From Lentilactobacillus farraginis DSM 18382 = JCM 14108 (GTDB taxonomy: Bacteria > Bacillota > Bacilli > Lactobacillales > Lactobacillaceae): DNA of 64,000 bases. Below are positions 14,618-51,437 of the stretch, one piece after another; positions within the stretch are counted from its first letter, which is position 1, and the number at the start of each line of letters is the position of its first letter. The stretch covers positions 1 to 64,000 of the forward strand of contig NZ_BAKI01000005.1 of NCBI RefSeq assembly GCF_000583655.1. Reading direction: 5' to 3'. The notes beneath the pieces are model-generated. The model made no database searches. It was not told the origin of the DNA and saw only the letters and a list, made by a program, of their open reading frames with translations. The position numbers and the translations under genes were made by a program.

Positions 14618-15664
14618 TTAATTTGTCCTTGTGGGTGTTTTTTCCAACAATAAATCGGCCAGTGTTTCGGGGGTGATTGCACCTAAATTAGCAGTTAAAT
14701 CAGCTAAATCAAGTGCCTTTACCAGCGCCTCCCTGGTTAATTGCGTACCTCTAAGTGCCTGTTCAATCACACCAATATCCCCACCGGTAATAAAGTCGCC
14801 ATAGATTTTAATATCCGAAATCCGTTGATCGGCCGAGAGTGAATAATTAAAACTGACCGTTCCGATGTCGTAGTGCTTGGAAACATAATAATCAAAGCCC
14901 GGATTCTGACCATAGTTCCATTCATCCGTATCATATTTTCCCTTCAGCCGATCGTCAATAACCGACCAATCATGATCATTCAGATGATAAGTCTTAATCT
15001 GGTCAAGAGCATCAACTTTAAACAACCGCAGTAAAAGCGCCCGCTTAAAAGCCTCGATATCCATTTGCTGATACTGGACATCCAAGTAAGGCTTCACATT
15101 GGTGACTCGGCTGTGAACCGATTTAACGCCCTTTGAAGCCAGTTTGTCTGCTTCCGGTGTTAACACTTTGGAAGCAACATCCATATCCAAATCAAACATC
15201 AACGTCCCGCCAGCCGCGTATGATTGGCCAACTTTAAACATTGTCATTCCGGAAAACTTACTATTTCCAATAACCATATCGTTTCGGCCACGCATCTGCG
15301 CATCCACTGCCCCCATATCGTGCAGTGCCGCAATAATCGGTTGCGCAAAATATTTAAAATCACCGAAATGAGCGTCATCATCAATCACGATATTTTCAAA
15401 AATAATGTTGCCATAATCGTGATAGACGGCGCCGCCACCGGATGTTCGCCGAACCAGCTTAATCCCTTTTTGTTTCAGGTATGGCATATTAACTTCCGCA
15501 TAAGCGTTCTGATTAACACCGATAATAACTGCCGGCTGGTTAACATACATTATTAAGCCGTGGCCGGGTAAGCGCAAATCATTGACCAAATAATTATCAA
15601 GCGACTGATTAACAATCGGATCATAAACCGGCTTACCGTTTCGTGACGTATCAATGAAGAACAT
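14618..15664 (-). CDS. lplA: Lipoate-protein ligase A
   Basis: A 348-residue enzyme that activates free lipoate with ATP and attaches it to lipoyl domains of 2-oxoacid dehydrogenases or GcvH. The family core is visible: QPAVIIGVNQNAYAEVN (about 43-59), the RRTSGGGAVYHD loop (about 72-83) and the GNSKFSG.... block (about 132-139). Length and a C-terminal accessory domain fit the long LplA form. It has its own promoter (TTGTCC, 17 bases, TATGAT at about 15710-15740), so it is probably independent of the genes upstream. Ribosome site GGGGG. Confidence 0.88.
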   Translation of the reverse strand: MFFIDTSRNGKPVYDPIVNQSLDNYLVNDLRLPGHGLIMYVNQPAVIIGVNQNAYAEVNMPYLKQKGIKLVRRTSGGGAVYHDYGNIIFENIVIDDDAHFGDFKYFAQPIIAALHDMGAVDAQMRGRNDMVIGNSKFSGMTMFKVGQSYAAGGTLMFDLDMDVASKVLTPEADKLASKGVKSVHSRVTNVKPYLDVQYQQMDIEAFKRALLLRLFKVDALDQIKTYHLNDHDWSVIDDRLKGKYDTDEWNYGQNPGFDYYVSKHYDIGTVSFNYSLSADQRISDIKIYGDFITGGDIGVIEQALRGTQLTREALVKALDLADLTANLGAITPETLADLLLEKTPTRTN

Positions 15665-15752
15665 GTTGTGAACCCCCAGACATTAAAATTAATTGTTAAC
15701 GCTACCATTATCATAAATCCGGTTACCCTAATGGACAACCGATAATTGATAA

Positions 15753-26043: not shown

Positions 26044-26672
26044 TTAGAATTTTGAATCAACTACCCGGTTATAATAACGCAAATAGTAATTATCACTACT
26101 TGCCTTTCGGGTAATTCTGGTAATGCTTAAGTTATCGGGTTCTTCAACGACCATCGGATTGTCAGGGCGTCCCAGTGCTGCCAAGACCGCCGCCTTAATC
26201 GTGAAACCGTGTGTTACCACAATGATTTTTTCATCCTGATACTTTTGCGCCGTAACAGACATAAAATGATCAGCCGGTCAATTACATGCGTGAACGTTTC
26301 ACCATGAGCAAGTGGCGCGTAACTTGGCAGCACATCATTTAAAACATGGTCAAAAACCTGGGGATATTCAGCTTCCAGATCCGCATTTTTAGAGCCATCC
26401 CAATTCCCGTACGATATTTCGAGAAGCAGTTTGTCATAAGTTATCGGTAGGTGCGCGCTCTGATTTAGAATGTCAGCAGTGTCTCTTGTCCGCTGTAGTG
26501 GGCTTGCCACAATTCTGTCCGCAAACGATATATCAAAATGTTCGTGCACCGTTTGCGCTTGTTTCTTTCCGGTTTCCGTTAAAAAAGTAATTTTAGTATT
26601 AATTGTTCCCTGCTTTAAACCGGCAGCGTTGGCCGCTGTTTGACCATGACGAACAAAATAAAAATCAGTCAT
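26044..26672 (-). pseudogene. Histidine phosphatase family protein, frameshifted (one missing base)
   Basis: A 209-residue phosphoglycerate-mutase-like phosphatase if one base is restored near 26262-26268 (THVIDRLI-HFMSVTAQ). Catalytic motif FVRHGQTAAN (RHG, about residues 8-10) is in the first frame and the second catalytic His (VVTHGF) in the second. Function could be a broad phosphatase or phosphoglycerate mutase-like enzyme. GGAGG precedes the ATG. Single missing base. Confidence 0.78.
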
Positions 26673-26801
26673 TTAAAATTCCTCCAAGGGGTTTTAAAGT
26701 ATTATCGCATATTTACAATTAAAGAAAAAGCCGAACTTTCGGCAAATTCCGAATAATAAATCAAAATAAGTAGATTTTATTTACTTATTACCAAAATTAG
26801 G

Positions 26802-27056
26802 TTGCAATTCTGTCACCGTTCTGTTAGATTTTAATTAGAAAGAGATGGAGGTCTTGGCAATGAACGTTATTTTAAGCAGTTTTAAGCGAGTCGTATCATC
26901 CTCCTGGTCTACAGTGACATCTATGTAGGCTATCTTTTGATTTGAATGAATGACAAAGGCCTTACATAGATGAACGTCAGCATCACTGTGAGGCCGTTAA
27001 AAATGCACCACCAGCCTCACAGCGTTAGTTAACTACTGTGAGGGCTATCTTTTTGA
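26802..27056 (+). promoter_or_regulatory. Serine leader-peptide attenuator of serCA
   Basis: Promoter TTGCAA (26802-26807), 17 bases, TAGATT (26825-26830). After the Ser-rich leader come five segments: 1 (26918-26930), 2 (26959-26972), 3 (26986-26995), 4 (27014-27022), 5 (27036-27046, then T5 at 27050-27054). Pairs 1:2, 2:3, 3:4 and 4:5 are all complementary; 4:5 is the terminator and 3:4 the antiterminator. The leader stop codon lies inside segment 1. Upstream of 26802 nothing else is evident in the 26673-27072 gap. Confidence 0.82.
26860..26928 (+). CDS. Serine-rich leader peptide of the serCA operon
   Basis: A 22-residue ORF with GGAGG eight bases before its ATG. Seven residues are Ser, clustered as VVSSSWSTVTSM near the end (TCA TCC TCC, then TCT, then TCT). 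It lies directly upstream of phosphoserine aminotransferase and phosphoglycerate dehydrogenase. Stalling at the Ser codons would leave RNA segment 1 free; completion would cover it. Confidence 0.82.
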   Translation: MNVILSSFKRVVSSSWSTVTSM

Positions 27057-27072
27057 AAGGGAGTTTTAGCAC

Positions 27073-28149
27073 ATGACGGTATATAATTTTGCAGCAGGTC
27101 CGGCCACGCTTCCCGACCCGGTTATTAAGCAGATTCAGGAGGAATTGCCTTCGTTACAAGGGTCTGGGATGAGTATCCTCGAAATTTCTCATCGTTCTCA
27201 AATGTTCGATAAGATTATCGATACAGCCAAGCAGGATATCAAAGACCTGATGCATGTTCCTGATAATTACCATATTCTGTTTTTTCAAGGCGGCGGCACC
27301 GGTCAATTTGCGGCTGTTCCAATGAATCTTGCAACCAAGCACAAGCGGATCGCTTTATTGGACAGCGGCCACTGGGCAACCCGGGCTGGCGATGAAGCTG
27401 CCAACCTAGGTGTTACCGTAGACGTTCTCGACTCTACCAAAGATAAGCATTATCAGGAACTGCCACATATGCCACACGCTATTTCTGCCAGTGACTACGA
27501 CTATCTCCACATCACTACCAACAATACGATTGAGGGAACGGCTTATCATACGCTTCCCGAACACGGTGATGTAACGCTGGTCGGCGACTTATCCTCCAAT
27601 TTCATGGCTGAAGAATATCAAGTAAGCGATTTTGGTTTGATTTTCGGTGGTGTTCAAAAGAATTTAGGTCCTGCCGGCGTTACTGTCGTCATTGTCCGAG
27701 ATGACCTGGTCAACCATGTCGATCACATTCCCAGCATCCTAAACTACGAACTATTCGTTAAGAAGAACTCCATGTTCAATACGCCACCGGTTTTTGCCAT
27801 TTATGCTACCGGTTTGGTTCTTAAATGGTTAAAACAGCAGGGCGGCATTGCCGGCATCGAAGCACTTAATAAAAAGAAATCGGCACTCCTCTATGACTTT
27901 CTGGATCAATCCACTCTATTTCATAATGACATCAAAAAAGCCGATCGTTCTTTAACAAACATTCCATTTAAAACAACTGATCCAGTGCTCGATAAACAGG
28001 TTATTGCCGAAGCGGATCAAGCCGGCTTAAAGAACCTGAAAGGTCACCGAAGCGTTGGCGGTCTGCGGGCCAGTCTGTATAACGCGATGCCATTAGCTGG
28101 TGTTCAAGCACTGGTCGACTTCTTATATAATTTTGAAAAACAACACTAG
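27073..28149 (+). CDS. serC: Phosphoserine aminotransferase
   Basis: A 358-residue PLP enzyme making O-phosphoserine from 3-phosphohydroxypyruvate and glutamate. Family N-terminus YNFAAGPATLPDPV, PLP-phosphate contact GGGTGQF (about residues 74-80) and the PLP lysine in FGGVQKNLGPAG (about 196) are visible. First gene of the serCA operon; serA begins 11 bases later. Ribosome site AAAGGGAG lies just after the attenuator terminator. Confidence 0.93.
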   Translation: MTVYNFAAGPATLPDPVIKQIQEELPSLQGSGMSILEISHRSQMFDKIIDTAKQDIKDLMHVPDNYHILFFQGGGTGQFAAVPMNLATKHKRIALLDSGHWATRAGDEAANLGVTVDVLDSTKDKHYQELPHMPHAISASDYDYLHITTNNTIEGTAYHTLPEHGDVTLVGDLSSNFMAEEYQVSDFGLIFGGVQKNLGPAGVTVVIVRDDLVNHVDHIPSILNYELFVKKNSMFNTPPVFAIYATGLVLKWLKQQGGIAGIEALNKKKSALLYDFLDQSTLFHNDIKKADRSLTNIPFKTTDPVLDKQVIAEADQAGLKNLKGHRSVGGLRASLYNAMPLAGVQALVDFLYNFEKQH

Positions 28150-28160
28150 GGGGAAAAGAT

Positions 28161-29327
28161 ATGTATCAAGTAAAAACATATAATGCAATTGCCCAAGCAG
28201 GCTTAGATCAGTTCACGGATAATTATCAGATTAATCAAACCGACAACGCGGACGCCTATCTGATACGTTCAGTTAATTTACATGACGTAACGTTTCCAAA
28301 GAGTCTTAAGATTATTGCCCGGGCCGGTGCTGGCTTTAACAATATCCCGCTGGATCGGGCTACTCAAAACGGCATTGCGGTTTTTAACACACCCGGCAGT
28401 AACGCCAACGCCGTTAAGGAATTAATTATTTCGCTGCTGGTTGCCAGTTCTCGGAATCTGTTTGACGCCGCCGACTACTCCGCTCATAACAGTGGCGCGG
28501 ATATTTCACTGAGAACCGAACACGATAAAACCAAGTTTAAGGGCACCGAGCTGACCGGCAAGACATTAGCCGTTATTGGTGTTGGCCATGTCGGCTCATT
28601 AGTAGCCAACGCCGCCAGCGCCCTGGGAATGAACGTTATTGGTTATGACCCATACTTATCATCGGATGCTGCTTGGCATATTTCAACCAGTATCACCCGA
28701 GCCCGGACTTTGGACGAAGCTTTAAAAAGTGCCGACTACGTAACCGTCCACGTCCCTAAAAACGAAGAAACAACCGGATTAATCGGTAAGGAACAGTTGG
28801 CAGTCATGAAGGACGGCGTTCACCTCTTTAATTATTCACGAGGTGGTATTGTTGATAATCAGGCCGCCGTCGAAGCACTGGACGCACACCATCTCCAAAC
28901 ATACATGACCGATTTTGGCGAAGATATTCTGTTAAATCGTGATGATGTCGTCGTAACACCCCACATTGGCGGCTCAACAGATGAAGCTGAAGTAAATGGT
29001 GCGACTCAAGGTGCCCATACGATTATGACCTATTTGGAAACCGGCAACATCCAAAACTCCGTGAACCTGCCAAATCTTCAGGTACCATTCCAAGCCCCTT
29101 ACCGAATTACGCTGATCCACAAAAACATCCCAAACATGGTTGGACAAATTGCGACTGCTTTGGCCAACGCCGGTATCAACATCGAAAGTATGAGTAATGC
29201 CGCTCGAAAAGACATTGCTTACACGATGATCGATCTCGATAATCTGAAGAACGAGGAAGATAATAAATTGATCGAAAAGCTTGGCAAGATCGATGCTGTA
29301 TTTCGGGTTCGTGTGCTGAAACATTAA
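28161..29327 (+). CDS. serA: D-3-phosphoglycerate dehydrogenase
   Basis: A 388-residue enzyme oxidising 3-phosphoglycerate, the first step of serine synthesis. NAD motif GVGHVGSLVANAA (about residues 140-152), catalytic Arg in NYSRGG (about 230) and His in TPHIGGSTDEA (about 277). The C-terminus (about 315-388) is an ACT domain, usually the serine feedback site. Second gene of the serCA unit, ribosome site AGGGGG. Control is thus probably doubled: RNA attenuation and allosteric feedback. Confidence 0.92.
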   Translation: MYQVKTYNAIAQAGLDQFTDNYQINQTDNADAYLIRSVNLHDVTFPKSLKIIARAGAGFNNIPLDRATQNGIAVFNTPGSNANAVKELIISLLVASSRNLFDAADYSAHNSGADISLRTEHDKTKFKGTELTGKTLAVIGVGHVGSLVANAASALGMNVIGYDPYLSSDAAWHISTSITRARTLDEALKSADYVTVHVPKNEETTGLIGKEQLAVMKDGVHLFNYSRGGIVDNQAAVEALDAHHLQTYMTDFGEDILLNRDDVVVTPHIGGSTDEAEVNGATQGAHTIMTYLETGNIQNSVNLPNLQVPFQAPYRITLIHKNIPNMVGQIATALANAGINIESMSNAARKDIAYTMIDLDNLKNEEDNKLIEKLGKIDAVFRVRVLKH

Positions 29328-32984: not shown

Positions 32985-33118
32985 GCATTAAAAAACCTCT
33001 TTACCGCCGTTGGGTAAAGAGGTTGTAGCTTCTCCCAAGTTAGACTTGGGTTCACCGATTCCTTCTTAACCTCACGGGGTTAATCTTAAAGGTCTTTCAA
33101 TTCGTTGTTAAAATCATA
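32985..33118 (-). promoter_or_regulatory. pyrBC promoter and PyrR-type attenuator
   Basis: Promoter TTGTGT, 17 bases, TATGAT (33113-33118). The PyrR-binding loop candidate TTAACCCCGTGAGGTTAA spans 33067-33083 and fits the consensus with CCNGNGAGG. An alternative stem CCCAAGT/ACTTGGG lies at 33033-33050. The terminator has perfect 12-bp arms (32994-33005 and 33013-33024) and T5. UMP-bound PyrR would favour termination. Confidence 0.8.
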
Positions 33119-51261: not shown

Positions 51262-51362
51262 AAGGAGGGGACCACCCTGACAATTTCCCTACACTGGCTT
51301 TGACCAGATCAGGTTCAAAGGGTTCGCGCTTAAATCGCGTCTCAGCCGGTGGGCTCCCCTAA
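51262..51362 (-). ncRNA. TPP riboswitch upstream of thiW
   Basis: The THI-box core is complete on the minus strand: GGGGAGCCC, CTGAGA, ACCCTTTGAACCTGATCTGG (51296-51322 region), GCCAGTGTAGGGAA and closing GGTCCCC. The spacing fits a type with an extra stem (GCGATTTAAGCGC). TPP binding lowers thiW expression, probably at translation since the 3' end runs near the ribosome site. Confidence 0.95.
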
Positions 51363-51437
51363 TGTCATCAAACTTTATTTAAAATCAAGTATACTATTAA
51401 ATCCTTAGAGACGGTATCCATTAGTTACTCAGCGTCA

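Follow-up and report, generated by a model that had tools for sequence, protein, structure and literature searches.

A serine-rich leader peptide probably switches on serCA in Lactobacillaceae in response to serine shortage at the ribosome

In the his operon attenuator of E. coli and Salmonella, six segments of leader RNA pair alternately and the last hairpin is the terminator; the first of them overlaps or adjoins the regulatory codons and has the second as its partner, and without translation the leader terminates (superattenuation). To our knowledge, serine is not among the amino acids with a known leader-peptide attenuator, and lactobacilli are heavy users of T-boxes. In the accessible parts of the papers cited here and below, the his mechanism is described as a leader peptide on which ribosome stalling leads to antitermination (PMC9413887, PMC1183508), and leader-peptide attenuators of Firmicutes are reported or predicted for histidine and the branched-chain amino acids (PMC2965389, PMC9413887, PMC5794164). 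Two of these are close comparisons. The leucine-rich ilv-leu attenuator of S. aureus is also a case of leader-peptide attenuation in a Firmicute, but it senses leucine and isoleucine and controls another operon with another RNA (PMC5794164). The His leader peptides of Bacillus, Peptostreptococcaceae and Erysipelotrichales are likewise Firmicute attenuators found by comparative genomics, but they concern histidine and other orders (PMC2965389, PMC9413887); in Lactobacillales, the most common control of histidine genes is the His T-box (PMC9413887). Among RNA elements before serine genes, the Ser T-box of Paenibacillus polymyxa serA likewise makes transcription of a serine biosynthesis gene responsive to serine through a leader RNA with a terminator, but senses uncharged tRNA directly (PMC8002221), and the serC RNA element RF00517 of alpha-proteobacteria also lies upstream of serC-serA, but consists of two short stems that have been suggested to mask the ribosome site of serC (PMC1273637). 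Among the matches listed in our survey of the open-access literature (subscription papers were outside its scope), no Ser leader peptide was described.

We analysed a 64,000-nucleotide stretch of the Lentilactobacillus farraginis genome (the window) and found, before serCA, an element that is very probably a ribosome-mediated transcription attenuator specific for seryl-tRNA. Its features, with those of the genes behind it, are the following.

26802-26830, plus strand: candidate promoter TTGCAA-17 nt-TAGATT with extended TG, read from the sequence
26847-26851, plus strand: Shine-Dalgarno (SD) GGAGG of the leader ORF, 8 bases upstream of its start, read from the sequence
26860-26928, plus strand: leader ORF of 22 codons, 7 of them Ser, with the translation MNVILSSFKRVVSSSWSTVTSM before the stop
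26896-26904, plus strand: key Ser run S13-S14-S15 (TCA TCC TCC) within the leader ORF
26906-26913, plus strand: segment 0, GGUCUACA, inside the Trp-Ser-Thr codons; its partner is segment 1
26918-26931, plus strand: segment 1, containing the leader stop codon TAG (26926-26928); its partner is segment 0 (via 26924-26931) or 2
26958-26972, plus strand: segment 2; its partner is segment 1 or 3, with pairing and covariation in relatives
26981-26995, plus strand: segment 3; its partner is segment 2 or 4, with pairing and covariation in relatives
27014-27022, plus strand: segment 4; its partner is segment 3 (antiterminator) or 5 (terminator)
27036-27054, plus strand: segment 5 (27036-27045) and T-rich tract (27046-27054), the 3' half of the predicted intrinsic terminator
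27073-28149, plus strand: serC, phosphoserine aminotransferase, first regulated gene (TIGR01364, 468.6 bits against a cut-off of 443.6)
28161-29327, plus strand: serA, phosphoglycerate dehydrogenase-like, second regulated gene (TIGR01327, 270.9 bits against a cut-off of 454)

The leader ORF stands directly before serC-serA, and its Ser codons are, in order, AGC AGT TCA TCC TCC TCT TCT. This arrangement, the good ribosome site and the position of the stop codon inside segment 1 had all been read correctly in the initial annotation, which had also given the leader its own promoter. A match with an extended TG is indeed there, but as a promoter it is only fair: the candidate is weak by consensus, and a consensus promoter scan of the window did not call it. 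A loose pattern of such a promoter matched before 70 of 89 leaders, in a run without a control. SD-like sequences also precede the leader ORFs of the relatives examined. The product of serA matches phosphoglycerate dehydrogenase models, all of them below their curated cut-offs. On the minus strand at 26044-26672, a divergent histidine phosphatase gene is split over two frames, and in the relatives L003 and L004 it is a single ORF of 209 aa; either a sequencing error or a true lesion could explain the split, and the enzyme is possibly the phosphoserine phosphatase of the serine pathway.

The six segments form a chain of pairings, 0:1, 1:2, 2:3, 3:4 and 4:5. Five of them had been described before, and all five are present; the sixth, segment 0 with its helix 0:1, had been missed. 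The layout is like that of the his attenuator as described above: both have a stretch of codons for the regulated amino acid, six segments, a last hairpin that is the terminator, a predicted stall that leads to antitermination, and a segment 0 that lies at the regulatory codons and pairs with segment 1. It is unlike the his attenuator in concerning serine, the serCA genes and Lactobacillaceae, and the likeness drawn here is one of layout and mechanism. The locus thus has an SD with a short ORF, clustered codons for the amino acid that the operon makes, and mutually exclusive, conserved hairpins, as leader-peptide attenuators do. Folding of the whole leader gave a z of -2.37 against chance, and the single hairpins gave -2.84 (0:1), -3.67 (1:2), -2.50 (3:4) and -2.33 (4:5); the value for 2:3, -0.28, comes from a shortened fragment that starts at 26962 and lacks GGCC. 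The consensus scan of the window did not call terminator 4:5, which we take to be due to its 13-base loop, as the limit of the scan is 8.

We compared the two alternative structures across relatives. The primary alignment comprised 31 loci of Lentilactobacillus and Secundilactobacillus. In it, the OFF structure (0:1, 2:3 and 4:5; 31 pairs) had 93.0% of its cells paired and 11 double-change pairs against a shuffled mean of 6.3, and the ON structure (1:2 and 3:4; 22 pairs) had 96.1% paired and 9 double-change pairs against 3.7. We then built a covariance model, R1, from the OFF pairs only, so that the ON pairs are absent from it. R1 was run on 65 loci chosen as nearly all carriers of a Ser leader, a choice that makes its yield different from a frequency, and matched 60 of the 65 at E<=4e-7 (59 distinct; some are loci used in building R1). 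In these 59 sequences, which include other genera, 94.1% of OFF cells were paired, with 24 double-change pairs against 18.2 in shuffles and 216 double-change cells against 52.6; for ON, 87.6% were paired, with 15 double-change pairs against 11.1 and 79 double-change cells against 28.9. Kinship alone can push such counts above shuffles without any structure, and slid partners served as the control: sliding brought OFF and ON pairing each down to 35-46%. Helix 4:5 had 97.8% of cells paired and double changes at 9 of 10 pairs in the 59 sequences. In 42 loci outside the training set, 77.4% of 1:2 and 88.1% of 3:4 cells were paired, against 26-53% when slid, with gap cells left out (for 1:2, 399 of 588 cells had letters in both partners). 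Antiterminator and terminator are therefore mutually exclusive hairpins that are both conserved with covariation. The initial annotation had suggested checking whether related species keep the leader ORF and show compensatory pairing, and this check came out positive at the serC loci of Lactobacillaceae.

Helix 0:1 bears on what the leader peptide itself is selected for. The peptide motif SSSWST is nearly invariant in the 31 loci (L002 and L024 are among the exceptions). Arrest peptides can show such invariance, and the attenuator might accordingly sense a general slowing of translation, or arrest by the nascent peptide, rather than serine charging alone. We regard this as improbable. Segment 0 pairs with UGUAGGCY (26924-26931), and 7 or 8 of the 8 pairs are kept in each of the 31 loci; 97.6% of cells are paired there, C-G replaces U-A at one pair in five loci, and in the 59 sequences 94.1% of cells are paired with double changes at 4 of 8 pairs. 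Base pairing in this covarying helix explains the invariance of Trp-Ser-Thr, including its Trp codon. Elsewhere the residue after the Ser run becomes L, K, R, Q, F or P while Ser stays; in other genera it is often Leu, Lys, Arg or Gln, and the 0:1 pairing is mostly kept. The Ser codons also change synonymously among relatives, which argues against an arrest sequence. As a constraint on the near-invariant TCATCCTCC, pairing of CCUCC in the Ser run with the leader GGAGG was considered, since it is present in the MFE fold of the leader. It was left aside: the SD core is nearly constant, which puts this pairing beyond the reach of covariation, and other genera have different Ser codons despite similar SDs.

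The leader is also conserved as an ORF. A detector that looked upstream of serC for an SD and a small ORF with three or more Ser codons in a stretch of five found one in 93 of 152 regions, whereas 20 mononucleotide shuffles gave a mean of 4.15 and a highest value of 10. Of the 93, four or more appear spurious (L063, L066, L130 and L152), and some loci are the same genome twice. Across genera, the leaders retain the SD, the start codon, the frame and the Ser run, and their N-terminal part varies freely. This pattern argues against an RNA switch that binds a metabolite or a protein and to which the short ORF contributes nothing. That reading would account for the extensive conserved structure, and serine genes of other bacteria offer parallels to it, with a T-box in one case (PMC8002221) and an RNA element yet to be explained in another (PMC1273637). 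Such a switch is very improbable also because comparable leaders with aromatic codons precede aromatic genes, and because the leader has no Rfam match at E<=1. Specifically, neither the T-box model RF00230 nor the covariance model of RF00517 matched at 26700-27100 at E<=1, and a scan of the whole window at the gathering threshold placed no Rfam family there. Rfam matches elsewhere in the window include a TPP riboswitch at 51268-51370 and a PyrR binding site at 32987-33096, both on the minus strand.

We next considered which Ser codons the leaders use. In 71 distinct leaders, the Ser run comprised 131 UCC, 39 UCA, 10 UCU, 7 AGC, 4 AGU and no UCG codons, that is, 69% UCC (131/191) and 94% UCN, with AGY at 11/191 (counts ignore kinship). 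The comparison set, the serC genes of 61 leader loci, had 16.6% UCC and 36% AGY. In B. subtilis, serine starvation raises ribosome density at UCN and not at AGY codons (PMC3862929, eLife 2013), and the UCN-rich run fits this published stalling, a difference between codons that a serine sensor built in this way would exploit. The sinR sensor of B. subtilis likewise reports serine starvation through slow reading of UCN and not AGY, but it lowers the level of SinR and involves no attenuator in the account accessible to us (PMC3862929). In selective-charging theory, sensitivity depends on which of the synonymous codons serves for regulation (PMC1183508). The Ser leader allows a direct test of isoacceptor choice, UCC versus AGY.

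The footprint of a ribosome extends about 12 nt past its A site. With this standard footprint, a ribosome stalled at S13-S15 reaches 26908-26914, masking all or part of segment 0 and leaving segment 1 free, and a ribosome at the stop codon reaches ~26938, masking segment 1 and leaving segment 2 free. As a test at the commitment point, partition-function folding was performed on the RNA exposed up to segment 4 at the 31 loci. With a stalled ribosome, the mean probability of 3:4 was 0.92, and it exceeded 0.5 in 30 of 31 loci; with the ribosome at the stop, it fell to 0.29 (above 0.5 in 9 of 31), and 2:3 reached 0.61 (20 of 31). In the window, 3:4 went from 0.98 on stalling to 0.12 with a finished ribosome. 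The switch outlined in the initial annotation, in which stalling gives 1:2 and 3:4 and finishing gives 2:3 and 4:5, was therefore reproduced at most but not all of the 31 loci. Without a ribosome, 3:4 was favoured in 17 of 31 loci, the window among them at 0.92; as this outcome is mixed, we do not claim superattenuation and regard 0:1 as only a possible setter of the OFF state.

Once segment 5 was exposed, mean probability was higher for the terminator whatever the state (0.90-0.95). Stalled and finished ribosomes free different segments and lead to opposite folds, but only through timing: at equilibrium the terminator prevails in all states, so control must be kinetic and depend on the order of events. 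Neither this point nor the spread of the element through much of the family is part of the initial annotation. The same preference would be expected of a constitutive leader with a leaky terminator, in which the hairpins only damp transcription and the Ser codons have lost their function; the serine-rich media in which lactobacilli often live would also suit it. We find this hardly credible, as selection is indicated by covariation of the ON pairs and by the strong preference for UCC.

The attenuator reading can be put as a sequence of predicted events. We infer a transcription start a short way upstream of the leader SD, followed by translation of the leader; the 0:1 hairpin is probably the first to form and would act as a pause or competitor hairpin. 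When charged tRNA-Ser is short, especially the isoacceptor that reads UCC, the ribosome would stall at S13-S15, where its footprint would cover segment 0 and not segment 1. Helix 1:2 could then form and leave segment 3 free, so that the antiterminator 3:4 would form before segment 5 emerges and the polymerase would enter serC-serA. When serine is ample, the ribosome would reach the stop codon inside segment 1 and cover that segment; 2:3 would form, segment 4 would stay free, and the terminator 4:5 would stop transcription. In this way a lack of serine at the ribosome probably leads the Ser-rich leader to switch the serine genes on.

The proposed Ser-specific attenuator is widespread in Lactobacillaceae, and was apparently undescribed before. 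We found serC in 20 of 24 genomes of the genus and in 171 of 397 of the family. R1 at E<=0.01 matched in 148 of the 397 family genomes, many of these matches being weak and away from serC. For comparison we used 151 serC places, those listed in the family search and one from the genus search, a set from which the places of 20 genomes are absent; genus names were assigned by matching member contigs. Within 700 nt upstream of serC, R1 matched (E<=1e-5) at 93 of the 151 places, at a distance of 18-574 nt (median 30 nt). The element preceded every serC examined in Lentilactobacillus (20/20), Secundilactobacillus (14/14), Companilactobacillus (18/18), Lacticaseibacillus (8/8), Lactiplantibacillus (20/20) and Apilactobacillus (7/7), and was present at 2/2, 1/1 and 3/4 places in the genera labelled g32, g26 and g13. 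The other genera had no match at this threshold, including Liquorilactobacillus (0/14), g16 (0/9), g22 (0/8) and Loigolactobacillus (0/7), and the places without a match numbered 58 of 151. Some serC genes missed by R1 carry a Ser leader as judged by the ORF, such as SSSQSSS in Lactobacillus. Leaderless serC loci occur in Loigolactobacillus, Liquorilactobacillus and Paucilactobacillus, and an Rfam scan of 12 leaderless loci found no T-box and no other known element at the gathering threshold. Conservation across much of a food and gut family makes the element a system in which to ask why ribosome stalling is used over a tRNA-binding RNA.

R1 also matched elsewhere. In the source genome, the serC site scored 124.9 bits and the next place 26.4. 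Six of 99 R1 matches compared fell outside the compared serC places: one, in G220, is a serC leader, one is the antisense of another match, and four resemble other leader-peptide elements. Across 295 genomes of the order, R1 at E<=1e-4 matched in ten, three of them outside Lactobacillaceae (G519, G567 and G616); on reading the sequences, these three were judged not to be attenuators. We also read part of the list of weak matches away from serC, and some resemble other leader-peptide attenuators; L195, L200 and L201 were set aside as plain coding or terminator sequence.

From these cross-matches of R1, we tentatively propose, with somewhat less than even confidence, that several amino-acid operons of Lactobacillaceae share one scaffold of leader-peptide attenuators in which the sensor codons are exchanged: Ser for serCA; Phe, Tyr and Trp for DAHP synthase, aminotransferases and PF13303 transporters; and Leu and Val for transporters. 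The Ser version would read mainly one tRNA-Ser isoacceptor (UCC). In the source genome, outside the window, an aromatic leader (MKKVNRKINRFYYYWFG, with FYYYWF) precedes DAHP synthase (G000, contig C112, ~15403-15690; L156/L215) and comes with a similar hairpin chain and terminator. The third R1 match in that genome (21.5 bits) is this aromatic leader region on the opposite strand; the fourth scored 19.0 bits. Aromatic leader ORFs were found at 8 of 30 aroF loci (L227 being doubtful), among them loci in genomes of other Lentilactobacillus, of g32 and of g2.

Product families were checked for five of these other leader loci. The aromatic leaders RYYYFWFF (L191) and RFYFWFF (L194) stand with terminator-like hairpins before aminotransferase genes; the L191 product is a class I/II aminotransferase by Pfam, and that of L194 was judged by its similar start only. 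Proteins of family PF13303 (PTS_EIIC_2) lie behind aromatic YYFWF or leucine LLLSLL leaders at L192, L197 and L198, which suggests that they transport amino acids rather than sugars; leader peptides can in this way hint at the function of PF13303 proteins whose annotation is that of sugar PTS components. At L199, a VVVVV leader precedes an amino acid permease (Pfam). In the Lentilactobacillus genome G004 (L204), the aroF leader region has a T-box a few hundred bases away, and the two kinds of control are therefore neighbours there.
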